A DNA stretch of 64,000 nt from Tomocerus qinae (lineage: Eukaryota > Arthropoda > Collembola > Entomobryomorpha > Tomoceridae). Below are positions 25,925 through 48,819 of the stretch, in pieces. Made by a program: the position numbers and the translations under genes. Below the pieces are notes generated by a model. It saw only the letters and a program-made list of their open reading frames with translations. It had not been told where the DNA came from and searched no databases. The stretch is from the NCBI GenBank assembly GCA_020055645.1, contig CM034549.1:32573930-32637929 (forward strand), written 5' to 3'. The stretch's first letter is position 1. Every line of letters starts with the position of its first letter.

Positions 25925-25929
25925 GCCAG

Positions 25930-26582
25930 TGGAGAGGGCTAATAAGGCTGTGCTATGAGTCATTTTTGGTTTTCCTTACTTTTCCATGCTCCTAGGAATG
26001 ATGTGATAAACGTGCAAGCCGCAACTTGGTGTGTTAGACACTTTTTATTTATGTACTATAAATAATTACACACACACATATTCTAGGTAACAATTACTAA
26101 CTAACAAACAGGTAAGTAAGGGTTCAGGTGAGTACACAGGTAACTTAATTAGGGGCACTAATTAAGTTTGGAGAACAGCACCGAAAATTGCGTGCTTCTC
26201 CGTCAGGATTCGGAAGTGTACTACTTGCTAGCATTCAAGTTTGGGTGCTAGGCAAGTGCAGTTGTGTCACATGACACATTCATATATACATAGGTAGGTA
26301 TGGGCAATACAACTACATACTATGCTATATTAGAATACAAGTAGGTAGGTAGGTAGGCTACACACTATTGTACATTACATTTCATACATTGCATATTTCA
26401 TAATACTAGGAAACCCCGCACTAAGGGGATTGACACAATTAGCCTAGTACATTCATACTACCATCCATGCATAAGGTCTACACTCGAGAGGAGGTTTCGA
26501 GCTAACGCCAAAGCGACCGTCCGTTCCGTCGCTTGCATGGTGCTCATGGAAGGAGGTGGCAGGAGGCCTTTGGGAGTAACTC

Positions 26583-26654
<72 letters not shown>

Positions 26655-26705
26655 ACTGTCCCTCTCTAGTCCTTATACTAGAGGAGAGTCTATGAGGCGT
26701 CTCCA
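25930..26705 (-). repeat. 3' LTR of the 4.7-kb element
   Basis: A 776-bp LTR with TG...CA ends. It contains a 92-bp 28S rRNA-like stretch at 26572-26663, a GC-rich hairpin near 26505-26535, a (GTAG)n microsatellite at about 26340-26355, and on the - strand an AATAAA at 26044-26049 that can serve as the polyadenylation signal. Confidence 0.95.
26572..26663 (+). other. 28S rRNA fragment embedded in the 3' LTR
   Basis: From GGGAGTAACT to CACTGTCCCT the sequence follows the near-universal eukaryotic 28S rRNA core, including CTCTTAAGGTAGCCAAATGC and TAATTAGTGACGCGCATGAA. I see one difference from the sequence I know (CTCTGACT for CTATGACT). This is the segment where R2 (at TTAAGG/TAGCC) and R1 (about 70 bp on) insert. 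Homology stops sharply on both sides, so it is a captured fragment, not an rDNA unit. It is antisense to the element. Confidence 0.88.
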
Positions 26706-26715
26706 TTCTCCCCAC
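26706..26715 (-). other. Polypurine tract of the 4.7-kb element
   Basis: Read on the - strand, GTGGGGAGAA lies directly against the 3' LTR, as expected for the plus-strand DNA primer. Confidence 0.75.
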
Positions 26716-26809
26716 GTTGAAATGTACTATTTCAAACTAGATAGATACAACACATACAAATACATTCAATTTATGATATCTAGTCTAGGGGGATACATAT
26801 TACATAATA

Positions 26810-29521
26810 TTACATCATAATTATTATGCACACATACAGACATATGGAGAAACAATGCATAAACAAATTATGCATGGCACTGTGGTACTTGTAGCGTGTT
26901 TTCCACATGCGTAAAATCTTCGTCGTAAAGAGTTGCAGGTTGCGTTGAGGAGCAGGATGCGTTGATACGTCTGTCCAGTCCTTCATCATTAGTGGTGCGG
27001 CTGAGGCACCAAAACACAATTCCTTTTCATTGCACTGTATACTAAACTTACGTGCAACTGGTGTAGCGGCGAGAGTCCCGTAGTTCCGCAGTGGAGACTG
27101 TGAGAGCATCTGCTGTCCATGTAGTTCCAATGCAGTTGACGTAGAAGTGAAGTGCAGGAGTAATGATGCGACGATCGGCGAATGCGATGTCCATCCATTC
27201 CGTTCGTCCCGCGAACAGATGCGGGTGAGAGCTGAAGAGCGTTGAGTGTCTGTGCAGCTAGGCTGTGTGTGCACAGACGTAGTAGGCCGGTCCGGCCGTA
27301 GTAACGAGGAGCAGCTCACTTGCGACGTGCAGTCCGTAGTGATGCTCTCGTTCGACAATTCCTTAGTTGAAGCTGCTGCATGTATATCATGTTGTTGCAG
27401 TTGGATGGGGATGGCGAGCGGAGAAAGTGGCGGAGGCAGCCAGACAGTTCCTGTAGAGTCCATCCATCCGTAGCTTCTTCGTAGACGGTTCCTGTAGGCT
27501 GCATGCATGCAGCGCAGTTGTGCTTGACAGGTTGTAGCACATAAGTTCAGTTCATTCATTATGCTATGCACGTACGGTGCATAGCATTTCACTTGCACGC
27601 GCACTGTGACTGTAGAGTCACTCAGCATAGTGGCGTGCGTGGATATCATCGTATAAATGGACTTGTGTAGCTTGTGTAAAACTACATACCGTGCAGGTGT
27701 AAGCTCCATCGATGTTACTTCGTAGAGAAGTCCGTGTGCACTGTCTTCGTGGCTGAGTAGCAGAAGTTTGTGCGTTGGTTCCATTTCATGCATGTAGGAT
27801 GTGTACATCATAGCACTGTACACAATTTGCCGTTCTGGCGTAAGTCGTCGAATGTCTTGCTTGCAGACCATTGCAAGCAGACTTCGTGCACTTAAATTCG
27901 GTAGTGCGAGTGACTTGTACCTAAGTCGAGTAGCACTTTCTATATCTTCCACGTCGCTGCATATCTGTCGCGTAGCGAGTGAAAGGAGATGCGTAGATTG
28001 CATCGTACAAGGATTTGCTTGCAGAGGCCCGACGAGATACTTCCTCGCGGCTGAAGGACTTCTGTCGGGTGGCTTCTTTTCCTTGTCCAGGACTTGTTGC
28101 TGGACGGGTGCAGAGTTGGGTGCTGTGCGAGCACCAAGAGTTGAGATGAAACTCGAGTAGGGGTATGGAGGACGCACTAACGAGGTTTCACTAACACTTC
28201 GTTCAATTTCATTGCAGTGGTACTCTTGTACCTTGTGTGCGTTAATGCCTACATGGGCACATGTAGGACGCAGTAATGAGGTTCGCTGTTCGTGTAGTGT
28301 AATGCTCATACAGAGGGTCATATACACTTTGTACGAGGCGATGCTGGCTGCAGTAGCCGAGTAGTCGAACGCACATTCACTTAGTTGCACTGTAGAGTGC
28401 ACAGAGTTGTCTTGTGGCAGAAGACAAATACAAACAATTTCACGATGGTGCACGGCAGGGTGCACAGAACAGTCTTGTATATGAAGACTTGCACAATCAC
28501 TTTTACTACTTGGCGAGATCCTAGACGTAGAATCTGCCGATGCGTCTGACACTGTGCGTGGCTGCACGGAGGGTGTAGACGGCTTAAGTGCTGCGGGCTG
28601 CAGCGAGTCGGACAAAGTAACATTTGTCGATGCGTGCGTCGGCACGGACATACAATTGTGAGAAATGGGTGTAAGGCATTTACTCACCATAAGTTCATGT
28701 TCACGTTGAAGCGTAGGTTCCAGCTTCTGCTTACTTGTGTGTGGAGAGTTGTCTTGCGGCTGAAGACGAACAATTACACTTTCACTTGGCATGACTCTGA
28801 ACACAGAGTATGCCGGTGCGTCTGAAGTTACGCGTCGTACACTGACGGTAGTAGACGACTTTACATCAAATGGATGTGGAGGCTCGTGCAGAGTTCCACT
28901 TAACAGTTCGTGCTTCGGCACGGGTGCATGTGCAATGCTAGAGGCTGTGAGAGTTTTACTCACCAAAGTGGATGTTCCATCGGATGTTTCTGCGGCTCGT
29001 CTTGACTCCTTCGAATGTTCCGACTGGATGTTCCTAGGCTTTTCTTCCTTGTTCAGTCTTGAGGACGCACTGTGGGATGTTTCTGTGGACGTTCCGTCTT
29101 TGGACTCCGGCGAATGTTCCGCTTGGCTGCTCCTAAGTGATGAGTGAGTGGATGCTCCGATGGATGACCTGAGTGGATGTTCCTTGGGATGTTCGCGCAC
29201 GATGTTCCCGTAGATGTTCCGTGTGGATTCTTCTTCCATGGACGTTCCTTTTCTTTGTTCAATGTGGATAGCTAGCTTGTCTAGTCTATCATGTAGGACG
29301 GTGTAATGAGGTTCTTCTGACTCATATTCATCGTCAGTTATAGCGAGGTGGCTACACTGCTGCAGTAGGCTACTGCATGCATCCCGGAGGATGTCTACTT
29401 CTTCTACTAGGTGGCGCTGGTCGGTTGACAGGCCATGCGTAGCGCCGTACGCAATAAAGAGATTTTCTAACCTAGTGATGCTTGTGTAAAGCTTCATCCT
29501 ATCCTGTCTAACGGCATCCAT
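26810..29521 (-). CDS. 903-residue ORF of the pol-less LTR element
   Basis: A single uninterrupted frame from ATG (29519-29521) to a stop 105 bp before the 3' LTR fills most of the element interior. Residues about 8-60 (with ITRLENLF at 15-22) look helical and resemble the start of BEL/Pao Gag proteins, which is an inference from pattern only. Residues about 90-190 are Ser/Thr/Glu/His-rich and encoded by repeats of the word GAACAT in all three frames. Residues about 250-390 hold three loose repeats around LQPQDNSPH, LHIQDCSVHP and LLPQDNSVH. The last 18 residues, LFMHCFSICLYVCIIIMM, form a hydrophobic tail that could anchor the protein in a membrane. No CCHC knuckle or enzyme motif is seen. 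GC content appears higher than in neighbouring DNA. Function unknown; it may be a Gag-like capsid or RNA-binding protein. Confidence 0.75.
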   Translation of the reverse strand: MDAVRQDRMKLYTSITRLENLFIAYGATHGLSTDQRHLVEEVDILRDACSSLLQQCSHLAITDDEYESEEPHYTVLHDRLDKLAIHIEQRKGTSMEEESTRNIYGNIVREHPKEHPLRSSIGASTHSSLRSSQAEHSPESKDGTSTETSHSASSRLNKEEKPRNIQSEHSKESRRAAETSDGTSTLVSKTLTASSIAHAPVPKHELLSGTLHEPPHPFDVKSSTTVSVRRVTSDAPAYSVFRVMPSESVIVRLQPQDNSPHTSKQKLEPTLQREHELMVSKCLTPISHNCMSVPTHASTNVTLSDSLQPAALKPSTPSVQPRTVSDASADSTSRISPSSKSDCASLHIQDCSVHPAVHHREIVCICLLPQDNSVHSTVQLSECAFDYSATAASIASYKVYMTLCMSITLHEQRTSLLRPTCAHVGINAHKVQEYHCNEIERSVSETSLVRPPYPYSSFISTLGARTAPNSAPVQQQVLDKEKKPPDRSPSAARKYLVGPLQANPCTMQSTHLLSLATRQICSDVEDIESATRLRYKSLALPNLSARSLLAMVCKQDIRRLTPERQIVYSAMMYTSYMHEMEPTHKLLLLSHEDSAHGLLYEVTSMELTPARYVVLHKLHKSIYTMISTHATMLSDSTVTVRVQVKCYAPYVHSIMNELNLCATTCQAQLRCMHAAYRNRLRRSYGWMDSTGTVWLPPPLSPLAIPIQLQQHDIHAAASTKELSNESITTDCTSQVSCSSLLRPDRPTTSVHTQPSCTDTQRSSALTRICSRDERNGWTSHSPIVASLLLHFTSTSTALELHGQQMLSQSPLRNYGTLAATPVARKFSIQCNEKELCFGASAAPLMMKDWTDVSTHPAPQRNLQLFTTKILRMWKTRYKYHSAMHNLFMHCFSICLYVCIIIMM

Positions 29522-29844
29522 TGCTTGCTACTGAGTGATGGAGGGAGACAAGGATATATTTTACTTACAGGGGTGATGTGCGATGAGACGTGCTGTCTAT
29601 GCAGGGATCCAATCTTCGTGTCTTGCAAGTCGACTCCAGGAGTGACTTGAGACGGGGAGTGATGAGACTGAAGCTTCGGCTTCAGTTCGTAGCACAAGAA
29701 ATATATACAAAATGGACGTGCAGTCCAACACTTACTTCCATCGATGGGCGATCGATGGTGACGTCACAGGCACAGTATCAGTTTCCCGTAACTGATGACG
29801 GTAATTAGTTGATGCACTAACTTTAATTAATGTTAATTACCGTA
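29522..29844 (-). other. Leader of the 4.7-kb element
   Basis: Untranslated sequence between the primer-binding site and the 903-codon ORF. It may hold packaging signals; none can be identified by eye. Confidence 0.5.
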
Positions 29845-29862
29845 ATCCGGCTCGAAGGACCA
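29845..29862 (-). other. Primer-binding site, tRNA-Tyr type
   Basis: On the + strand ATCCGGCTCGAAGGACCA equals the 3' end of eukaryotic tRNA-Tyr including CCA, as I know it. The element RNA (- strand) therefore carries the complement, TGGTCCTTCG..., two bases after the LTR. This fixes the direction of reverse transcription. Confidence 0.85.
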
Positions 29863-29864
29863 AA

Positions 29865-30517
29865 TGGAGAGGGCTAATAAGGCTGTGCTATGAGTCATTT
29901 TTGGTTTTCCTTACTTTTCCATGCTCCTAGGAATGATGTGATAAACGTGCAAGCCGCAACTTGGTGTGTTAGACACTTTTTATTTATGTACTATAAATAA
30001 TTACACACACACATATTCTAGGTAACAATTACTAACTAACAAACAGGTAAGTAAGGGTTCAGGTGAGTACACAGGTAACTTAATTAGGGGCACTAATTAA
30101 GTTTGGAGAACAGCACCGAAAATTGCGTGCTTCTCCGTCAGGATTCGGAAGTGTACTACTTGCTAGCATTCAAGTTTGGGTGCTAGGCAAGTGCAGTTGT
30201 GTCACATGACACATTCATATATACATAGGTAGGTATGGGCAATACAACTACATACTATGCTATATTAGAATACAAGTAGGTAGGTAGGTAGGCTACACAC
30301 TATTGTACATTACATTTCATACATTGCATATTTCATAATACTAGGAAACCCCGCACTAAGGGGATTGACACAATTAGCCTAGTACATTCATACTACCATC
30401 CATGCATAAGGTCTACACTCGAGAGGAGGTTTCGAGCTAACGCCAAAGCGACCGTCCGTTCCGTCGCTTGCATGGTGCTCATGGAAGGAGGTGGCAGGAG
30501 GCCTTTGGGAGTAACTC

Positions 30518-30589
<72 letters not shown>

Positions 30590-30640
30590 ACTGTCCCTCT
30601 CTAGTCCTTATACTAGAGGAGAGTCTATGAGGCGTCTCCA
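29865..30640 (-). repeat. 5' LTR of the 4.7-kb element
   Basis: The partner copy of the 776-bp LTR, lying 3935 bp to the right, with no difference seen by eye. It carries the same 28S-like stretch at 30507-30598. Because the element reads leftward, this is the promoter-bearing LTR. Confidence 0.95.
30507..30598 (+). other. 28S rRNA fragment embedded in the 5' LTR
   Basis: The same 92-bp 28S-derived stretch as at 26572-26663, present because both LTRs are copied from one template. It lies in the U3 part of the promoter-bearing LTR, read in antisense. Confidence 0.88.
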
Positions 30641-30690
30641 GCCAGCATAATCAAATCATAATTCCTAGTACAGGCAGATAGATCACAGAC

Positions 30691-31652: not shown

Positions 31653-34600
31653 ATGTCAGTTCCGGCGATTCCAGTTGCCCCTGTGTCGAAGCCCAAAAAG
31701 CATTTTATCGGAGCCGCAGCTCCTTCTGGTTATGTTGCTGGAGTTGGTCGAGGGTAAGTGTTTACGAAAAGGTTAAATATTAGACCAGTTTACAGTTTAT
31801 ATTTCTCTTAGAATAACACGACGTAAATTCAATTTTTCATTCCAGAGCCACTGGTTTTACCACCCGTTCGGATATTGGTCCTGCGAGAGATGCCAACGAT
31901 GTTTCTGATGATCGTCATGCTCCTCCAAATAAGCGTAAGAAGGGAAACAAAGAACCAGAGGAAGAAGAAGATGAAGAGGATCTTAATGATTCTAATTACG
32001 ATGAGGTAAGGCTGGCACATAGCGCAACTGTTGCACGTTGCACCTTCATCTTTAATAATCTGTATATTCAATATTCAAAAATATAAGTGTTTAAACAAAC
32101 ATCATTTTGCTTATAGTTTTCTGGTTACGGAGGCTCCCTGTTCAGCAAAGACCCATATGATAAAGACGACGAAGAAGCAGATCAGATTTACGAGTCAATT
32201 GATCAAAGAATGGACGAGAAAAGAAAAGATTACAGAGAGAAGAAATTAAAGGGTAAGTTTTAATATCTCATTTAAGTAAATATAAGTGCCATAATTACAA
32301 GATTCAAGTGTATTGTATGCAAAATGCAAATACTTTTCCATGTGATTTAAGTATTCTAACGGAGAAAAAATAATAAGTTTGTATTATCTTTTATATAGCC
32401 GTTTTGGAAAGGTATCGTCAAGAAAGGCCGAAAATCCAGCAACAATTCAGCGATTTGCGACGTGCATTGTCTTCAGTCTCAGAAGACGAATGGAATAATA
32501 TTCCAGAGGTTGGAGATTCCAGGAATAAAAAGCAACGAAATCCAAGAGCCGAAAAGTAAAAACGATTACTTTTTTAATCCAAACATAGTGATTGTGGATT
32601 GAATCTAATATGCATCAATTCATCTGTATAGGTTTACACCTTTGCCTGACACAGTTTTGTCCCGGAATTTGGGAGGAGAAAGCATGACAGCTATAGATCC
32701 AAAATCAGGAATGGCATCAGCATTTCCAAATAGTGGAATGATGACTCCAGGTATTCTCATTTTTATTTTCTATAAATGCTAAATGGAAATGATAAACCAA
32801 ACTGTTTATACTAATAGAGGTTACTTTGATTCTTTCATCATAAGGATTGTCAACACCTTCTGGCGATTTGGATTTGAGAAAAATCGGACAAGCTCGTAAC
32901 ACCTTAATGAATGTCAAACTTAACCAAGTTTCTGATTCAGTATCTGGACAGACCGTTGTCGACCCTAAGGGATATCTCACTGACTTACAATCCATGATTC
33001 CCACTTATGGGGGTGATATTAAGTGAGTCTCTACTATTCCATCGTCGTTTACTTATATTATAGTCAGTCTAACTGATTTGATTATGCATTTCTGACAAAA
33101 ATATATTATAACCGACATTTACACAATCGATAAATAGAACAACAACACGCAAACCTTTTTAACATGGTATTATACTATATCTATTATATACTAAAAGTAT
33201 AATCGATTGTTTTATTCTACTAGTGACATTAAGAAAGCTCGTCTGCTTCTAAAATCTGTACGTGAAACTAATCCCAATCATCCTCCAGCATGGATCGCTT
33301 CAGCTCGATTGGAAGAAGTGACAGGAAAAGTTCAGACTGCACGGAACCTTATTATGAAAGGATGCGAAGTTAATGCAAACTCCGAAGATTTATGGCTAGA
33401 GGCAGCACGACTACAGCCACCTGATTTAGGAAAAGCTATTATTGCTCAAGCAGTGAGACATATTCCAACCTCGGTTCGTATTTGGGCCAAAGCAGCAGAT
33501 CTTGAAATTGAAGTGAAAGCAAAGAAGAAGGTGTATCGGAAAGCTTTGGAACACATTCCCAACAGTGTTCGGCTTTGGAAAGCTGCTGTCGAATTAGAGG
33601 AACCAGACGATGCTCGGATTCTGTTGGGTAGGGCTGTTGAATGTTGTCCTACTTCAGTTGATCTCTGGCTAGCTCTTGCCAGGTACTATTTTTATATCAC
33701 GCTTTTAATTAGTTTACCACGAAAACGAATCCCTAAGCTTTTAATATGAATTTCCATACTTGTAATCGACTTAGGTGAGAAAACATCTATTCGTGTCGTT
33801 AAAACCATAAAATGGGGTTGATAATTTCTTCAAAATGTTTGCTTTAGATTGGAAAGTTACGAAAACGCAAGAAAAGTTTTAAACAAAGCTCGTCAAAGTA
33901 TTCCTACTGACCGTTTAATTTGGATCACTGCTGCAAAGTTGGAAGAGGCACATGGAAATAGCCACATGGTGGACAGGATTGTTGAACGAGCCATAAGCTC
34001 ATTGACGGCCAATGGTGTAGAGTTGACTCGTGATCAGTGGCTGGAAGATGCCATGGAATGCGACAAAGCAAAATCTTATTTGACATGTCGAGCTATCGTC
34101 AAAAGCATCATTGGACATGGATTAGAAGACGAAGAACGGAAAGAAACTTGGGTCGAAGATGCTGAAAATTGTGCCCAGAAGGTAACCGGTATCATTTGAT
34201 TACATGGAAGGACTCCTACGAGGGAATCACTCCTAAAAGACTTAACACCTAAAGGACTCCTAAAGCCAGCTAATTATATGTCCAGTGCAGCTTCATCATG
34301 CAATAACAGCTTAAGATTGTCTTAACAGTTAATTAACATTAAAGATACTGGAAATTAAACTGATTTGTAAACCAATCGAATAGTCACGATTAGATGTGGT
34401 ATAAAGGGCAACTCTAAAATAATTACAAACAATCAGTTAATATATTGCATTGGAGGAAGAAGTACTTTTTAGGAATCCTTTAGGAGTAAAGTCTTTTAGG
34501 AGTGATTCCCTCGTAGGAATCGGTCCCTGACAGCGTATCATTTCAATAATTTAATTGTTCTCTTCGTTTTATTTTTCATTAAAAATCATGTTTAATGTTA

Positions 34601-42357: not shown

Positions 42358-42741
42358 TGTCGTCGGAATTTAGAAGAACCGCCACCGCTCAGCACGAAAG
42401 AGAAAAGAGAAGCAGAAGCAAAACGTTGCAAGCAGAAGCAGACGCATTCGAGCGGAGCACGAGGTAGCAGCCAGAAAAAGTGACTCCCGATAATAATAAT
42501 ATATTTTATTATTGAAATAGATTAAAAAGTTGTAAAATTGATTTGAATTAGTGCCCTTAATAAAAGCACTAATTTATGTCAAGTTTGCCTTGTCAAGTGA
42601 CAGTTTATTGGCATCTTGGACATAGTCATTTAGCTAGAAATCGTCCGTCTTAGGTAGACAGTGTGTGGCATCTTGCATTTGACCAACGACATTACATCGC
42701 CTAGTGTAGGCACGGAAAATAGATCCGAAGCGGGTCGAACA
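42358..42741 (+). repeat. 5' LTR of the BEL/Pao element
   Basis: 384 bp with TG...CA ends. Contains AATAAA (42559-42564) in the loop of a 9-bp stem (42546-42574). The first about 126 bp are the same sequence that in the 3' copy encodes the end of the polyprotein. Confidence 0.97.
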
Positions 42742-42742
42742 T

Positions 42743-42752
42743 TGGTCCTTCG
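42743..42752 (+). other. Primer-binding site, tRNA-Tyr-like
   Basis: TGGTCCTTCG matches the first 10 bases of the complement of the tRNA-Tyr 3' end. It then diverges (TAGCGC rather than AGCCGG), unlike the full match in the 4.7-kb element. Confidence 0.65.
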
Positions 42753-42801
42753 TAGCGCAGATAGAACAGTCCTTTGGAAAGTGACAGTGTGACATTTGAA
42801 A

Positions 42802-45800
42802 ATGAAGAAATCAAGAGCAAGAGTTTTGCAAGAACCTGAACGCCAAAGCCGAAGATTGGCAGGGGATGTACCCGAATTTGGACGTTGGGAGAAAGAACCG
42901 CGGCGGGGGAAAAGCGACTTGGAGGTGCCAGCCGGTGAACCGGAAGTGACAGCCCCAGACCCTCCCGCACAACGTAAAAGTGAAAAAAGTGTACCTAATG
43001 GTTCCAATTCTGTCAAGACGACAGCTAGCAGAATTCTACTTAGGAAATTAGAAGCTGAACTGGAAACCGAGGAACAAATTTTGAAGATGGAGGAAGAAGC
43101 AGCGGCTACCCTACTCCAACGGCGCAGACTACTGGCCATGAAGAAATTGCAACTGCAAAAGGCCAGAATCGAGGAGGAAGGTGAGGACGAACAAGCAATT
43201 AGTTCTAGTGACGAGTTCCAGTCTGTTCCTGAGACAAGAGGTGAAAACAGTCGTGTAGAAGATTGGGTAGAGGATAGCCTGGGACATGGTGGACGACCAC
43301 CGACTCCATCACCGCCTCCAAGTGAGTCACAAAATAATGAAATTTCAAATCCCAGTGCCATGGAGTTAATGGCACAAGCAATTACTGCGTTAGCACAGTC
43401 ACAAACGAAGGTTTCCACTGGGGGTGGTGATCTGAAGACGTTTGTGGCCAGACAGTCCTTCGCCAAAGACTTACCACAATTTTGGGGGGACCCTGAAGAA
43501 TGGCCTACGTTCTACAGTATGTATAAACGTACGACCGAGAGCTGCACATTCAGTGCAGACGAAAATCTGTTGAGACTCCAAAAGTGTCTACGGGGAAGAG
43601 CCAAGGAGTCAGTTCAAGCTTTACTGACGGTTCCAGAAAATGTTGACCGTGTTATGTCAACCCTCGAGATGTTGTTTGGAAAGCCTGCAGACATAGTGAA
43701 GATTTGTATCGATAAAGCGAAGCAAGTTTCAGCGCCAAAAGAAGATCGACCAGAAACTATTATAGACTTCTCGTGTGCAATTGTCAACCTGGTGACAACG
43801 ATGGAAAATCTACGTGAAAAAGGGCACATGACTAATCCTCAGCTGATTGAAGAATTAGTCGAGAAGTTACCTGGTGGTCTCAGATTGCAGTGGGGAACAT
43901 TTTGTTTGACAAAAGAGACCTCACCGGACTTAAAGGACTTGTCAGACTGGATGACAAATATTGCCAAAGCTGCCAGTCGACTGAAATCATCCCAGAAGCC
44001 AACTAAGTCAGAGAAGGATGATAAGAAAAATAAAAATCGTAATCGTGGTAAGGAAGTTATTTTGACCACTACCAACAATGAAGAAGAAACCTGTGCCCTT
44101 TGTGACAAATCTGGACATATTTTGGAGTTGTGTCGTATTTTTATTCGTATGAATATAAACAAAAGGAAGGATTTTGTCATAAGAAAGAGGCTTTGTTTTT
44201 GTTGCTTTGGGAAGGATCATCAAAGTTCGTCATGTGACAAAGTGTGTGGAAAGGACAGTTGTGAAGGTAAACACCATCACTTTCTCCACAGATCGATTAC
44301 TTCCAAGCCTAGTGAAACTTCAAGTGACAATGTGGAAGTTGTAAAATATTCTTGCGGCAGCGAGAAAATAGTGCTACTCAAGATATTACCTGTAACCTTG
44401 ATTGGGCCAGCTGGCTCTTTCAACACTTACGCAGAATTGGACGATGGATCTACTACTACTATGCTAGATGCTGAAGTAGCGAAGAAACTTGGACTGGATG
44501 GCCCAAAGGATCCCTTTCGTATGCGTTGGGTGAAGAATACCGAACATGCAGAGTTGGACTCAATGAGAGTGACATTGACAATAGTTGGAGCTGACAAAAG
44601 TAAAAGTTTTTGTCTGAAGGATGTGCGCACTATACCCGACCTCGATTTAGCGGCTCAGTGTATTGACACGAAGAGACTTATGAAAAAGTGGCCGTATTTA
44701 TCGAATGTGCCAATTGCTTCCTTGCAGAATGCGAAACCAACTATTCTCATTGGACAGGATAACGCAAGTTTGATTGCAGCGCGACAGTTACTGGAAGGCC
44801 CTGCAAATGCTCCTGTAGCCACCAGAACCAAGCTTGGATGGGTACTACATGGAAACTCTACGAAATTCAGAGGACGAGTGGATGGAATCTGCACACACCT
44901 AAGAGTCGTGGACGCAGATAAGTTGGAGTCTTTACAACTCACAAAAGAATTGTACGAGACAGAAAGTTGTGGTGCTACTGCAACTTCCCACTTAATAGAT
45001 GACCACCGAGATGACGAATTGCACCAACTGATGAAAGAGCAATTCAAGACGGAGAATTTTGGAGTAATGTTGCTGCCGAATCTGCCGAAGTCGAAAGAAG
45101 ATATTCGTGCAGAAGATATTATCAATAAAACTACCCGCCGTGTTGGCACACGTTGGGAGACGGGACTTCTTTGGAAAACTGATGACATTTGCCTTCCTGA
45201 AAGCAAAGAGAATGCCCGGAGAAGACTCAACTCTATAGAGAGGAAGATGGACAGGGACCCGAAGTTCGCAACCAAGTATTGTGTGAACATTGATGAATAT
45301 TTGCGTAAAGGTTACGCTCGGAAGCTCACCCCTGAAGAAGCAAATGATGTAAGTGACAAAACCTGGTACCTGCCACACTTTGCTGTCAGCAAACCTAGTA
45401 AGCCCGACAAAATTCGGTTGGTTTTTGATGCTGCAGCCAAAAGTAATGGAGTTTGCCTCAACGACGAATTATTGAAGGGACCCGACTTGCTGTGCTCATT
45501 AGTTGGAGTTCTCTACACCTTCCGACAGAGAAATATCGGATTCACCGCCGACATTCGTGAGATGTTTCTTCAGGTGCTGATTCGGAAGGAAGATTTGCCT
45601 GCCCAACGTTTCATTTGGAGAGGTATGAATCGTAAGAAAGAACCTGATGTCTACGAAATGTCTGCTATGACATTTGGAGCTACCTGCTCACCAAGCCTAG
45701 CACAGATCTGCAAGAATCGAAATGCAGAAGAATTCCGTGTGGAATTTCCGGAAGCTGCTGAGGCCATAATCAAACGACACTACGTGGATGATCTGCTGGA

Positions 45801-48561
45801 TAGCTGTAGTAACAAGGAAACTGCAGTGAAATTAATTAAAGAAATTATCGAAGTTCAGCGACGTGGAGGATTTGAATTAAGAAATTGGAGCTGTAGTTCG
45901 AAAGATGTCCTACAGTCAATTCCCCCCGAATTACGTTCAACTGAGAACAAGGATCTCAATCTAGAATCGGAGCTGCCCACAGAACGAGTATTGGGACTTC
46001 AATGGAATCCGAATTCAGATACGTTTACATTTGCGTGCCAGTTTCATCGAGTCAAGAAGGAAATCTTAGAAGGTATAAGAATTCCGACCAAGAGGGAAGT
46101 GTTGCAGCTCGTGATGTCCGTTTATGACCCACTGGGATTCCTCACGCACTTTATCGTCAAAGCAAAAATCCTTATGCAGGATATCTGGCGAAGTGGAATC
46201 GGTTGGGATGACTCCATGCCCCACAGTTTGAATGAGAAGTGGAGGAATTGGCTGGATGAATTGAAAGGAGTTACTGCAGTACGCATACCAAGATGCTATT
46301 CCCCGGATATTGACAGTGCTGAGTCAATACAGCTACATGTATTCACCGATGCCAGTGAGAAAGCTTTCTCAGCTGTTGCCTATCTGCGTGTGAAATATGG
46401 AAATGGAATCCGGACTGCCTTTGTGACAGCAAAATCAAGAGTCTCACCTCTGCGGCCGATGTCAATTCCTCGGTTGGAATTGCAAGGAGCCCTGATTGGA
46501 AGCCGTCTTGCTGAGACTATCAAGAAAGAACACGAGATAAAAATTGATGTGACTTATTACTGGACGGATTCTCGCACTGTACTTTGCTGGCTGAAATCAG
46601 ATGCCAGAAAGTACAAACCTTTTGTGGCGCACCGTGTTGGTGAAATTCTGGAGACGACTGATGTGGACAAGTGGAACTGGGTGCCCACTGCCGAAAATGT
46701 TGCAGACGAGTCGACAAGGGATTCGGATGATTCTGACTTTTCGCCTACAAGTCGTTGGTTCTGTGGTCCTGCATTTCTCCAACTTACTGAATCGGAATGG
46801 CCCAAGGAGAAGAAACCCTCTCGAGAAATTGACCCTGATGAACTGGAGTTGAAGCCAGAATTCGCGAATGCAGTCACAGCAGTGTCATCTGAGGAAATAG
46901 AAATCTCTGAAGCCTTGCCCGAAGCTAATGTTGATTCGACTTGGTGGAGGCTGACTCGATCCATTGCCTGGATAAGAAGATTTGTCTACAATTTAAAATG
47001 TAAATTGAAGAAACAAGAAACCAACTCTACTTCCTGGTTAACTCTGAGGGAAATTCAAGAAGCTGAATTTATAGCGCTGAAGCGAGCCCAGAGAGAAAGT
47101 TTTGGAAAGGACCTGGAGTTGCTGGAGAAAGGAAAGACACTACCTAAGTCAAGTAAATTAGCCTTGCTTTCTCCATGTATAGATGACGAAGGAGTTCTTC
47201 GAATGAATGGAAGAACTGTGAAAGCTCCTGCAGTCAGCACTGACTTTGGGAGACCAATTATCCTAGATGGGAAGAACGCTCATACTATGTTACTCGTGAT
47301 GCATTATCATGTTAGAGCTGGCCACCATGGATTTGAACTAATTATGAACGAAATTCGCCAACGCTTCTGGATAGTTGGATTACGAAGTGCAGTGAAAGGC
47401 GCAAGAAGAAAATGTCAAGAATGTCGTCTTACTGATGCCAAACCAAGGGTGCCGGAGATGGGACAACTTCCAGAATTTCGTTTAACAAGATACGCAAGAC
47501 CGTTTACGATTACTGGCGTGGACTATTTTGGTCCGATGGAAGTGTCCATCGGAAGAAGACGAGAAAAAAGATACGGAGTACTCTTCACGTGTATGAGCAC
47601 CCGCGCCGTCCATTTGGAGATAGCAGCCTCGCTATCCACTGATTCGGCCATAATGGTAATTCGGAGATTTGTTGGACGCCGTGGATGCCCGAAGGAATTA
47701 CATTCCGACAATGGAACGAATTTCCATGGTGCGGATAATGAGCTACGGAAAGCTCTCGAAGATTTTGACCAGATTAAGATCGTGGAAGAACTGACAAAAA
47801 GAGGAATCATTTGGCGATTCTTACCACCCTCTTCCCCATTTATGGGTGGGGCGTGGGAAAGACTGGTGCGATCGGTGAAAATCGCATTGAAAACGACCCT
47901 TAAGGAACGGGCTCCAAGAGAAGAAGTTCTCCAAACTCTATTCGTAGAAGCGGAGAACATTGTGAACAGTCGACCACTTACACCTGTTTCACCTGACTGG
48001 AAGGATGAAGAAAGCTTGACCCCAAATCACTTTCTTATTGGATCATCAAATGGGACTCCAGCGCCTGGAGTTTTCTTGGAAACGGATTTATGTCTCCGTA
48101 AGCAATGGAGAATTGCACAATGCCTAGCAGACCATTTTTGGAAGCGCTGGATGCGCGAATATCTGCCAACATTAACCCGACGGAAGAAATGGCTGAAATC
48201 GACACCCTCTTTAAAAATTGGTGATCTCGTTTTCATAGCTGACGGGAATGCAGAAAGAAATAATTGGCCCCGCGGAAGAATCATTGAAGTTTTTCCTGGG
48301 AAGGACGGAAAAATACGCGTTGTTGACGTGAAGACTCAGAATGGAGTTCTCCGCAGACCAGTGGCGAAACTCTTCGTCATTGACGTTGAGCAAGGAGTTG
48401 TGGATGACCCCAGAGGTCCATCACTGGGGGTGGTATGTCGTCGGAATTTAGAAGAACCGCCACCGCTCAGCACGAAAGAGAAAAGAGAAGCAGAAGCAAA
48501 ACGTTGCAAGCAGAAGCAGACGCATTCGAGCGGAGCACGAGGTAGCAGCCAGAAAAAGTGA
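42802..48561 (+). CDS. BEL/Pao Gag-Pol polyprotein
   Basis: One frame of 1919 residues from ATG 42802. A charged N-terminal coiled-coil region precedes a DUF1759-type Gag domain (about 222-370, beginning near LPQFWGDPEEWPTF). Two CCHC zinc knuckles sit at 431-444 and 465-478. The aspartic protease carries LDDGST near 546-551. Reverse transcriptase has YVDD at 994-997. The Pao-type RNase H begins with TDAS at 1182-1185. The integrase has an HHCC zinc finger from His1501, then catalytic Asp1574, Asp1636 and Glu1686. A DUF5641-type C-terminal domain with NHFLIG follows. The last about 41 residues, Lys/Glu/Gln-rich, are encoded inside the 3' LTR. No stop or frameshift is present. Gag and Pol share a frame, as usual in this family, so processing depends on the protease. 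Confidence 0.96.
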   Translation: MKKSRARVLQEPERQSRRLAGDVPEFGRWEKEPRRGKSDLEVPAGEPEVTAPDPPAQRKSEKSVPNGSNSVKTTASRILLRKLEAELETEEQILKMEEEAAATLLQRRRLLAMKKLQLQKARIEEEGEDEQAISSSDEFQSVPETRGENSRVEDWVEDSLGHGGRPPTPSPPPSESQNNEISNPSAMELMAQAITALAQSQTKVSTGGGDLKTFVARQSFAKDLPQFWGDPEEWPTFYSMYKRTTESCTFSADENLLRLQKCLRGRAKESVQALLTVPENVDRVMSTLEMLFGKPADIVKICIDKAKQVSAPKEDRPETIIDFSCAIVNLVTTMENLREKGHMTNPQLIEELVEKLPGGLRLQWGTFCLTKETSPDLKDLSDWMTNIAKAASRLKSSQKPTKSEKDDKKNKNRNRGKEVILTTTNNEEETCALCDKSGHILELCRIFIRMNINKRKDFVIRKRLCFCCFGKDHQSSSCDKVCGKDSCEGKHHHFLHRSITSKPSETSSDNVEVVKYSCGSEKIVLLKILPVTLIGPAGSFNTYAELDDGSTTTMLDAEVAKKLGLDGPKDPFRMRWVKNTEHAELDSMRVTLTIVGADKSKSFCLKDVRTIPDLDLAAQCIDTKRLMKKWPYLSNVPIASLQNAKPTILIGQDNASLIAARQLLEGPANAPVATRTKLGWVLHGNSTKFRGRVDGICTHLRVVDADKLESLQLTKELYETESCGATATSHLIDDHRDDELHQLMKEQFKTENFGVMLLPNLPKSKEDIRAEDIINKTTRRVGTRWETGLLWKTDDICLPESKENARRRLNSIERKMDRDPKFATKYCVNIDEYLRKGYARKLTPEEANDVSDKTWYLPHFAVSKPSKPDKIRLVFDAAAKSNGVCLNDELLKGPDLLCSLVGVLYTFRQRNIGFTADIREMFLQVLIRKEDLPAQRFIWRGMNRKKEPDVYEMSAMTFGATCSPSLAQICKNRNAEEFRVEFPEAAEAIIKRHYVDDLLDSCSNKETAVKLIKEIIEVQRRGGFELRNWSCSSKDVLQSIPPELRSTENKDLNLESELPTERVLGLQWNPNSDTFTFACQFHRVKKEILEGIRIPTKREVLQLVMSVYDPLGFLTHFIVKAKILMQDIWRSGIGWDDSMPHSLNEKWRNWLDELKGVTAVRIPRCYSPDIDSAESIQLHVFTDASEKAFSAVAYLRVKYGNGIRTAFVTAKSRVSPLRPMSIPRLELQGALIGSRLAETIKKEHEIKIDVTYYWTDSRTVLCWLKSDARKYKPFVAHRVGEILETTDVDKWNWVPTAENVADESTRDSDDSDFSPTSRWFCGPAFLQLTESEWPKEKKPSREIDPDELELKPEFANAVTAVSSEEIEISEALPEANVDSTWWRLTRSIAWIRRFVYNLKCKLKKQETNSTSWLTLREIQEAEFIALKRAQRESFGKDLELLEKGKTLPKSSKLALLSPCIDDEGVLRMNGRTVKAPAVSTDFGRPIILDGKNAHTMLLVMHYHVRAGHHGFELIMNEIRQRFWIVGLRSAVKGARRKCQECRLTDAKPRVPEMGQLPEFRLTRYARPFTITGVDYFGPMEVSIGRRREKRYGVLFTCMSTRAVHLEIAASLSTDSAIMVIRRFVGRRGCPKELHSDNGTNFHGADNELRKALEDFDQIKIVEELTKRGIIWRFLPPSSPFMGGAWERLVRSVKIALKTTLKERAPREEVLQTLFVEAENIVNSRPLTPVSPDWKDEESLTPNHFLIGSSNGTPAPGVFLETDLCLRKQWRIAQCLADHFWKRWMREYLPTLTRRKKWLKSTPSLKIGDLVFIADGNAERNNWPRGRIIEVFPGKDGKIRVVDVKTQNGVLRRPVAKLFVIDVEQGVVDDPRGPSLGVVCRRNLEEPPPLSTKEKREAEAKRCKQKQTHSSGARGSSQKK
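48425..48433 (+). other. Polypurine tract of the BEL/Pao element
   Basis: TGGGGGTGG two bases before the 3' LTR, within the coding frame of the polyprotein, is the expected plus-strand primer. Confidence 0.7.
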
Positions 48562-48819
48562 CTCCCGATAATAATAATATATTTTATTATTGAAATAGAT
48601 TAAAAAGTTGTAAAATTGATTTGAATTAGTGCCCTTAATAAAAGCACTAATTTATGTCAAGTTTGCCTTGTCAAGTGACAGTTTATTGGCATCTTGGACA
48701 TAGTCATTTAGCTAGAAATCGTCCGTCTTAGGTAGACAGTGTGTGGCATCTTGCATTTGACCAACGACATTACATCGCCTAGTGTAGGCACGGAAAATAG
48801 ATCCGAAGCGGGTCGAACA
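48436..48819 (+). repeat. 3' LTR of the BEL/Pao element
   Basis: The 384-bp partner LTR. The polyprotein stop lies at 48559-48561, 126 bp inside it. AATAAA is at 48637-48642. Confidence 0.97.
48624..48652 (+). promoter_or_regulatory. Poly(A) signal in a hairpin loop, BEL/Pao LTR
   Basis: AATTAGTGC and GCACTAATT form a perfect 9-bp stem. Its 11-base loop contains the AATAAA signal. The same hairpin is in the 5' LTR. Confidence 0.6.

Follow-up and report, generated by a model that had tools for sequence, protein, structure and literature searches.

An antisense 28S rRNA fragment in the LTRs of related BEL/Pao families of a springtail

In the springtail Tomocerus qinae, an LTR retrotransposon was found to bear, in both of its LTRs, a piece of the 28S rRNA gene that includes the R2 insertion site. 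The locus raises the question of whether such a piece is the accident of a single copy or a part that the element has kept and, in the latter case, what it might do. The analysis covered the window, that is, the whole stretch of 64,000 nucleotides in which the element lies, and the host genome (334 Mb, 115 contigs), from which single genome all copy counts and conservation values were taken. In the LTRs of a BEL/Pao lineage of this springtail, the U3 region contains some 100 bp of 28S sequence in antisense, with limits at -25 or -30 on one side of the R2 cut and at +74 on the other.

The 28S fragment and the element that carries it

The element in the window, assigned here to family A, is encoded on the minus strand and has the following features.

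25925..25929, no strand: left target site duplication (TSD), gccag, 5 bp
25930..26705, minus strand: 3' LTR (left copy), 776 bp, one of an identical LTR pair
26044..26049, minus strand: AATAAA in the 3' LTR, LTR position 657 (motif only)
26572..26663, plus strand: 28S fragment, -25 to +67 from the R2 cut, LTR positions 43-134, in U3 (Rfam and alignment to host 28S)
26664..26670, plus strand: degenerate remainder of 28S up to +74, CTCTAGT for ATCTACT (5/7 bases match host 28S)
26706..26716, minus strand: polypurine tract (PPT), CGTGGGGAGAA (from the sequence)
26810..29527, minus strand: single ORF, 905 aa between stops, with the first Met as residue 3 (ORF list, translation)
29845..29862, minus strand: primer binding site (PBS), TGGTCCTTCGAGCCGGAT, complement of a tRNA 3' end, first 12 bases in common with family B
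29865..30640, minus strand: 5' LTR (right copy), 776 bp, same sequence as the 3' LTR, ends TG..CA
30218..30223, minus strand: TATA-like motif TATATA in the 5' LTR, LTR position 418 (motif only)
30507..30598, plus strand: 28S fragment repeated in the 5' LTR (LTRs identical)
30641..30645, no strand: right TSD, gccag, 5 bp

With its LTR pair, TSD, PBS and PPT, this 4.7-kb element is an LTR retrotransposon, and the tRNA to which the PBS TGGTCCTTCGAGCCGGAT corresponds is presumably tRNA-Tyr. The 905-aa ORF gave no Pfam match up to E 10, with no recognisable reverse transcriptase (RT) or integrase domain, and, of the 7992 candidates that a large protein search scored, none matched at E 0.001. Since no RT or integrase of its own could be recognised, the element was classed as non-autonomous. 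The ORF contains internal repeats. In another copy (L046) it is likewise open, over 896 codons, and the two gave a dN/dS of ~0.80 (0.0998/0.1247); on this single comparison the family A protein looks weakly constrained. From the positions of the TATA-like and AATAAA motifs, the 28S piece was placed in U3, and it would therefore lie near the 3' end of the element RNA.

For comparison with the host's own 28S, the reference was a locus (L048) with SSU, 5.8S and LSU matches. The fragment at 26572-26663 is identical to it at 91 of 92 bases, the sole mismatch being a C for A at 26582. The plus strand of this interval is sense 28S rRNA, so that the piece is antisense to the minus-strand element. The Rfam model LSU_rRNA_eukarya matched a local stretch of 241 bases with 97.4 bits (E 2.6e-24) and the 4.8-kb element with 66.9 bits (E 1.3e-14), while the whole-window Rfam scan at the default gathering cut-off missed the piece. 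A 22-mer across the R2 site matched the window twice at up to three mismatches, against 0.01 matches expected. The sequence-only reading had described a 28S fragment of about 92 bp with sharp edges, antisense, in both 776-bp LTRs and spanning the R2 site; its coordinates and length were right, and the alignment to the same species' 28S that it proposed bore out the origin of the piece.

That reading also had the piece stopping at the R1 site, which holds for part of the material. The R2 cut falls after position 26596, and the available text of PMC3414825 places the R1 3' junction 60 bp downstream of the R2 cut which, with a 14-bp duplication, puts the R1 5' junction at +74. In family B and in a further context designated C (both described below), the 28S match ends exactly at +74 and hence at the R1 5' junction, whereas the exact match in the window ends at +67. 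Family B copies keep the unaltered ATCTACT version of the edge. In an RNA fold of the region, the degenerate bases 26664-26670 form a hairpin arm that pairs with the LTR end; the fold of the 28S-piece region was otherwise ordinary on both strands, with z values of -0.4 and -1.2. Scans of viral contigs and prokaryote genomes with the 28S core gave 0 matches.

Two further loci in the window were noted. An intact BEL/Pao element occupies 42358-48735, with its frame at 42793-48561 and terminal repeats that agree fully for at least 300 bp, and the R2-site 22-mer found no match within it. Elsewhere, PRP6 exons translated from the window were 87% identical to those of Allacma fusca, also a springtail, and the PRP6 gene region contains an inverted repeat (34203-34529) with 62-nt arms that are 89% complementary and 203 nt apart.

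Distribution of the fragment and the relationship of families A and B

A 31-mer from the 28S core, with up to three mismatches allowed, was found at 133 places in the host genome, and its reversed control at 0. Among the 100 of these 133 places that were listed, 94 matched exactly. Six of the 100 run on into 28S past the R1 site, one of which (L086) departs from 28S on the left. The other 94 listed places do not extend into rDNA, and those that were read fall into four contexts, designated A, B, C and D.

Whether the piece belongs to the families as such was judged from copies found by sequence outside it. With a 31-base LTR anchor outside the 28S piece, 42 family A places were obtained, and all 42 LTRs carry the piece (30 by position, 12 read). 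Using the first 31 bases of the LTR as the anchor for family B gave 24 places, and again all 24 LTRs carry it (21 by position at 168-253 bp, 3 read). A capture private to one copy, which the earlier reading had named as the finding that would overturn it, is thereby ruled out, and the piece is carried by every LTR that the anchors found in either family.

Family B is represented by a 7.2-kb element (L036) with identical 837-bp LTRs, the TSD GCTTA and a 1712-aa frame, and its 28S piece is likewise antisense, at LTR 188-284. In the frame, the domains Peptidase_A17, DUF1759, DUF5641, H2C2 and rve were found together with an aspartyl protease match. RVT_1 was not reported for family B, which nevertheless aligns with the BEL element of the window where RVT_1 is reported there. 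The Pao peptidase, RT and integrase of BEL/Pao elements are thus represented, and by its predicted protein domains family B is an autonomous BEL/Pao element.

The proteins of the two families are related. Three stretches of the family A protein match that of family B: the N-terminus, with 32 of 93 positions identical (E 4e-11), one further on with 26 of 70 (E 5e-07), and one with E 0.007. By way of the family B polyprotein, family A thus has protein homology to BEL/Pao. Since the stretches follow the same order as in B, the family A ORF has the appearance of a BEL polyprotein that has degenerated. In a protein search of the host genome with family B, in which 28 of 1414 candidates were scored, these included six copies at 96-100% identity, all of which adjoin 28S places by position, and the next relatives among the 28 stood at 50-59% protein identity. 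Four of these BEL relatives, at 56-58%, were read for 1.3 kb past the end of the frame, the expected location of the 3' LTR. This 1.3 kb contained no 28S sequence, and its alignment with family B gave only short, chance-like matches.

The remaining contexts were less uniform. Context C (L037:4083-4181, L038:4599-4697 and L052) has a 28S piece from -30 to +74, which is perfect in L037 and L038. It lies in a repeated stretch that takes up most of the 9 kb read and is mostly 92-95% identical between these two loci, and on its left it is flanked by sequence (AGGCTTTTACGGC in L038) similar to the flanks in A and B. Context D (L025, L026, L028, L040, L041, L049 and L050) consists of ~270-300 bp of B-like U3 with the 28S piece, among other repeats and a tandem array; a context D pair 10.4 kb apart (L031 and L032) adjoins a frame that resembles a reverse transcriptase by eye. 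Another dispersed family (L080-L083), with 15 places, has a divergent 28S-derived stretch around and beyond the R1 site (e.g., TGTCCCTGTCTACTATCTACCGAAACC).

Conservation of the block and its possible explanations

The LTRs of A and B align in the piece with 97% identity across 97 bp, and elsewhere only short or low-complexity alignments were obtained. Two A-type copies share a B-like U3 stretch, at 81-89% (L045) and 76-83% (L039) identity, and these copies show, as far as their alignments reach, that U3 ahead of the block formerly resembled that of B. They had been considered as simple A/B chimeras that switch inside the block (L012, the same locus as L045, and L039), which was rejected, as they are rather A-type LTRs with B-like U3 between the LTR start and the 28S piece.

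Divergence within the families was compared between the block and its surroundings, and a set of copies, most of which had been chosen by their 28S identity, was left out as evidence of constraint. For the B and D loci, the 69 bases of the block that had not been used for finding them diverged by 0.040, versus 0.136 in the left and 0.224 in the right flank, and the block was lower than the flanks in 103 of 120 pairs; this comparison comprised 16 aligned rows, since some of the 19 sequences with a common name were merged. Across six full family B LTRs, the piece stood at 0.025 against a median of 0.158 for windows along the LTR, of which 67 of 517 equalled or exceeded the piece in conservation, those with the least divergence beginning at LTR 51-55. 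The stretch at LTR B 51-120 (L036:1854-1923) is non-28S U3 with repeated GTTCGAAACAGTCTTGTC-like motifs and was at least as conserved as the 28S block.

For family A, three copies found by the same 30 bases gave 0.019 versus 0.076. In the 12 copies missing from the exact-28S list, the block stood at 0.042 and its neighbours at 0.068, 0.095 and 0.064, a modest contrast of 1.5-2.3-fold in a sample biased against conservation, and in the other 15 copies, many of them picked for perfect 28S, at 0.004 versus 0.053-0.195. The 12-copy and 15-copy values come from 29 of the 42 anchored LTRs (27 distinct sequences); the pooled 28S figure of 0.022 mixes both samples, and only the 12-copy figure was used. 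The true divergence of the A block is between 0.004 and 0.042. On these alignments, the piece changes more slowly within families than most of the LTR, and not uniquely so.

The reading preferred here, to which we give about an even chance, is that the piece is an old captured module kept as a cis-acting part of the element in the related families A and B. A single capture of the 28S piece would have taken place in their common ancestor, either by template switching onto rRNA during plus-strand synthesis or by insertion of a 28S cDNA, and the piece would then have been retained for its action in cis. The 3' part of the element RNA, its U3, would be a near-perfect antisense copy of the 28S core and could pair with rRNA or pre-rRNA. 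Such pairing might bring about nucleolar or ribosomal association, protection or co-packaging, a function that we put forward tentatively and consider possible more than probable. Pairing is favoured as the function since some 100 bases, and not a short motif, stay nearly identical to 28S, and its presence in both A and B would be expected if a helper and its dependent relied on one signal. In a fuller form of the proposal, which is speculative and on balance unlikely, A and B would keep an antisense 28S mimic either to reach the nucleolus or ribosome by pairing or to take rRNA hostage, such that small RNAs directed against the element would also strike 28S.

The strongest rival, itself unlikely but not far-fetched, is that the piece is functionless and is kept 28S-like by re-copying, with the RT switching repeatedly, within the block, onto abundant rRNA or between co-packaged element RNAs. 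In its favour, no other homology shared by A and B is of comparable length in the main. Moreover, the 28S-equal allele at 26582, present in 4 of 16 LTRs, is scattered over at least three places on a tree of the LTR sequence outside the block, some nodes of which are weak; from this scatter it appears that the block recombines or is re-copied and has its own history. Resetting from rRNA should, however, erase changes peculiar to a family, and such changes are still there: nearly all A copies that were read have CTCTAGT in place of ATCTACT at the edge, a subgroup of A has GGTACCC where the R2 site lies, and two B elements have a GACACG change. This persistence argues against frequent resetting, as does the presence of conserved B windows outside the 28S piece against re-copying in general. 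Selection and re-copying may both be acting on the block.

It is doubtful that the 28S-derived DNA serves instead as a promoter or enhancer, i.e., as a transcription-factor site in U3. Its location upstream of the TATA-like motif in A would suit such a role, and the rest of the B U3 also has conserved windows; on the other hand, near identity over ~100 bp exceeds what a binding site needs, and the distance of the piece from the LTR start varies, being 38 in A and 188 in B.

Improbable as well is a neutral passenger, captured by chance and riding in young, successful families. LTR pairs are 99.2-100% identical, so that many copies are young, and decayed copies of the piece do exist, one matching at 84 of 89 bases (L065) and two at 89 of 97 with one deletion (L087 and L088). 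A passenger should nonetheless diverge equally with its surroundings, which is contradicted by the B and D copies, whose flanks differ 3-6 times more than the piece does, and A and B are far more diverged outside the piece than within it.

Highly improbable is a decoy or target, in which the R2 and R1 sites within the piece would draw R2/R1 proteins to bind or cut the LTR, or would let copies exchange with rDNA: the piece does span the R2 cut and reach the R1 5' junction in B and C, and three insertions ending exactly at the R2 cut (L077-L079) occur in the host, but a search with the pattern of these junctions found all three in rDNA and none in an LTR copy, the GGTACCC subgroup of A is altered at the R2 site itself, and the 83 of 94 listed non-rDNA places that share a contig with one of nine rDNA stretches come no nearer to it than 1.79 Mb. 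The suggestion made from sequence alone that the piece offers homology for integration into rDNA fared no better, the copies not being enriched near rDNA. By the insertion position of the three rDNA junctions, the host genome probably carries R2. An R1-interrupted 28S gene as the source of the piece would fit the +74 edge; among the nine exact matches in rDNA (six with 28S unbroken at the R2 site and three with an insertion), no R1 3' junction was found, and several of these rDNA stretches run into N.

Comparison with known systems

Scattered 28S matches in assemblies can be LTRs, and caution is warranted by the 133 core places found here: 100 of these were listed, and in no more than 6 of the 100 does 28S sequence extend past the R1 site. 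In searches of an open-access library, no description of 28S inside an LTR was found among the titles and opening lines of abstracts obtained.

SINE28-type SINEs are mobile elements derived from 28S. They resemble the present families as mobile elements with 28S sequence and differ in that the piece here is internal to an LTR and antisense. The likeness to R2 and R1 lies in the target region that the fragment covers and in the R2-cut insertions in the host rDNA. Those elements insert in the 28S gene and have no LTRs, whereas the elements described here have LTRs and an integrase-type TSD and occupy dispersed sites. With BEL/Pao elements, the present families share LTRs, a 5-bp TSD, a PBS and a PPT, together with the BEL/Pao protein domains of family B; the BEL/Pao elements compared within the host differ in having no 28S sequence in the regions covered, namely the 1.3 kb after the frame of the four relatives and, for the R2-site 22-mer, the BEL element of the window.

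The closest parallels are Cassandra, Ajax and Helenus (TRIMp3), described in PMC10886601, as far as its accessible text goes, as LTR elements that are non-autonomous and whose LTRs contain sequence of 5S rRNA or a tRNA acting as a Pol III promoter; the term 28S is absent from the main text of that article. In common with these, family A is a non-autonomous element that carries RNA-gene sequence in both LTRs, kept across copies, and its 5-bp TSDs are like those given there for Ajax. It is not a TRIMp3 miniature without an ORF, being 4.7 kb long with a 905-aa ORF, and no Pol III small-RNA gene was found in its LTR, the only Rfam match to the element up to E 1 being LSU rRNA, nor any tRNA in the window. 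Set against the same description, the sequence here is a 28S fragment, a Pol I product, in antisense, it is also present in an autonomous BEL/Pao family, and its role is probably a different one. The idea of RNA genes in LTRs, so far one of Pol III small RNAs, is thus extended to part of the large Pol I rRNA, in an animal, with the piece in antisense and in an autonomous family together with its dependent. If the pairing proposed here is true, these families would offer a testable case of a mobile element that exploits its complementarity to rRNA to be localised or packaged or to escape silencing. LTR elements would then have a strategy based on rRNA complementarity, one distinct from the Pol III promoters that Cassandra and Ajax carry.
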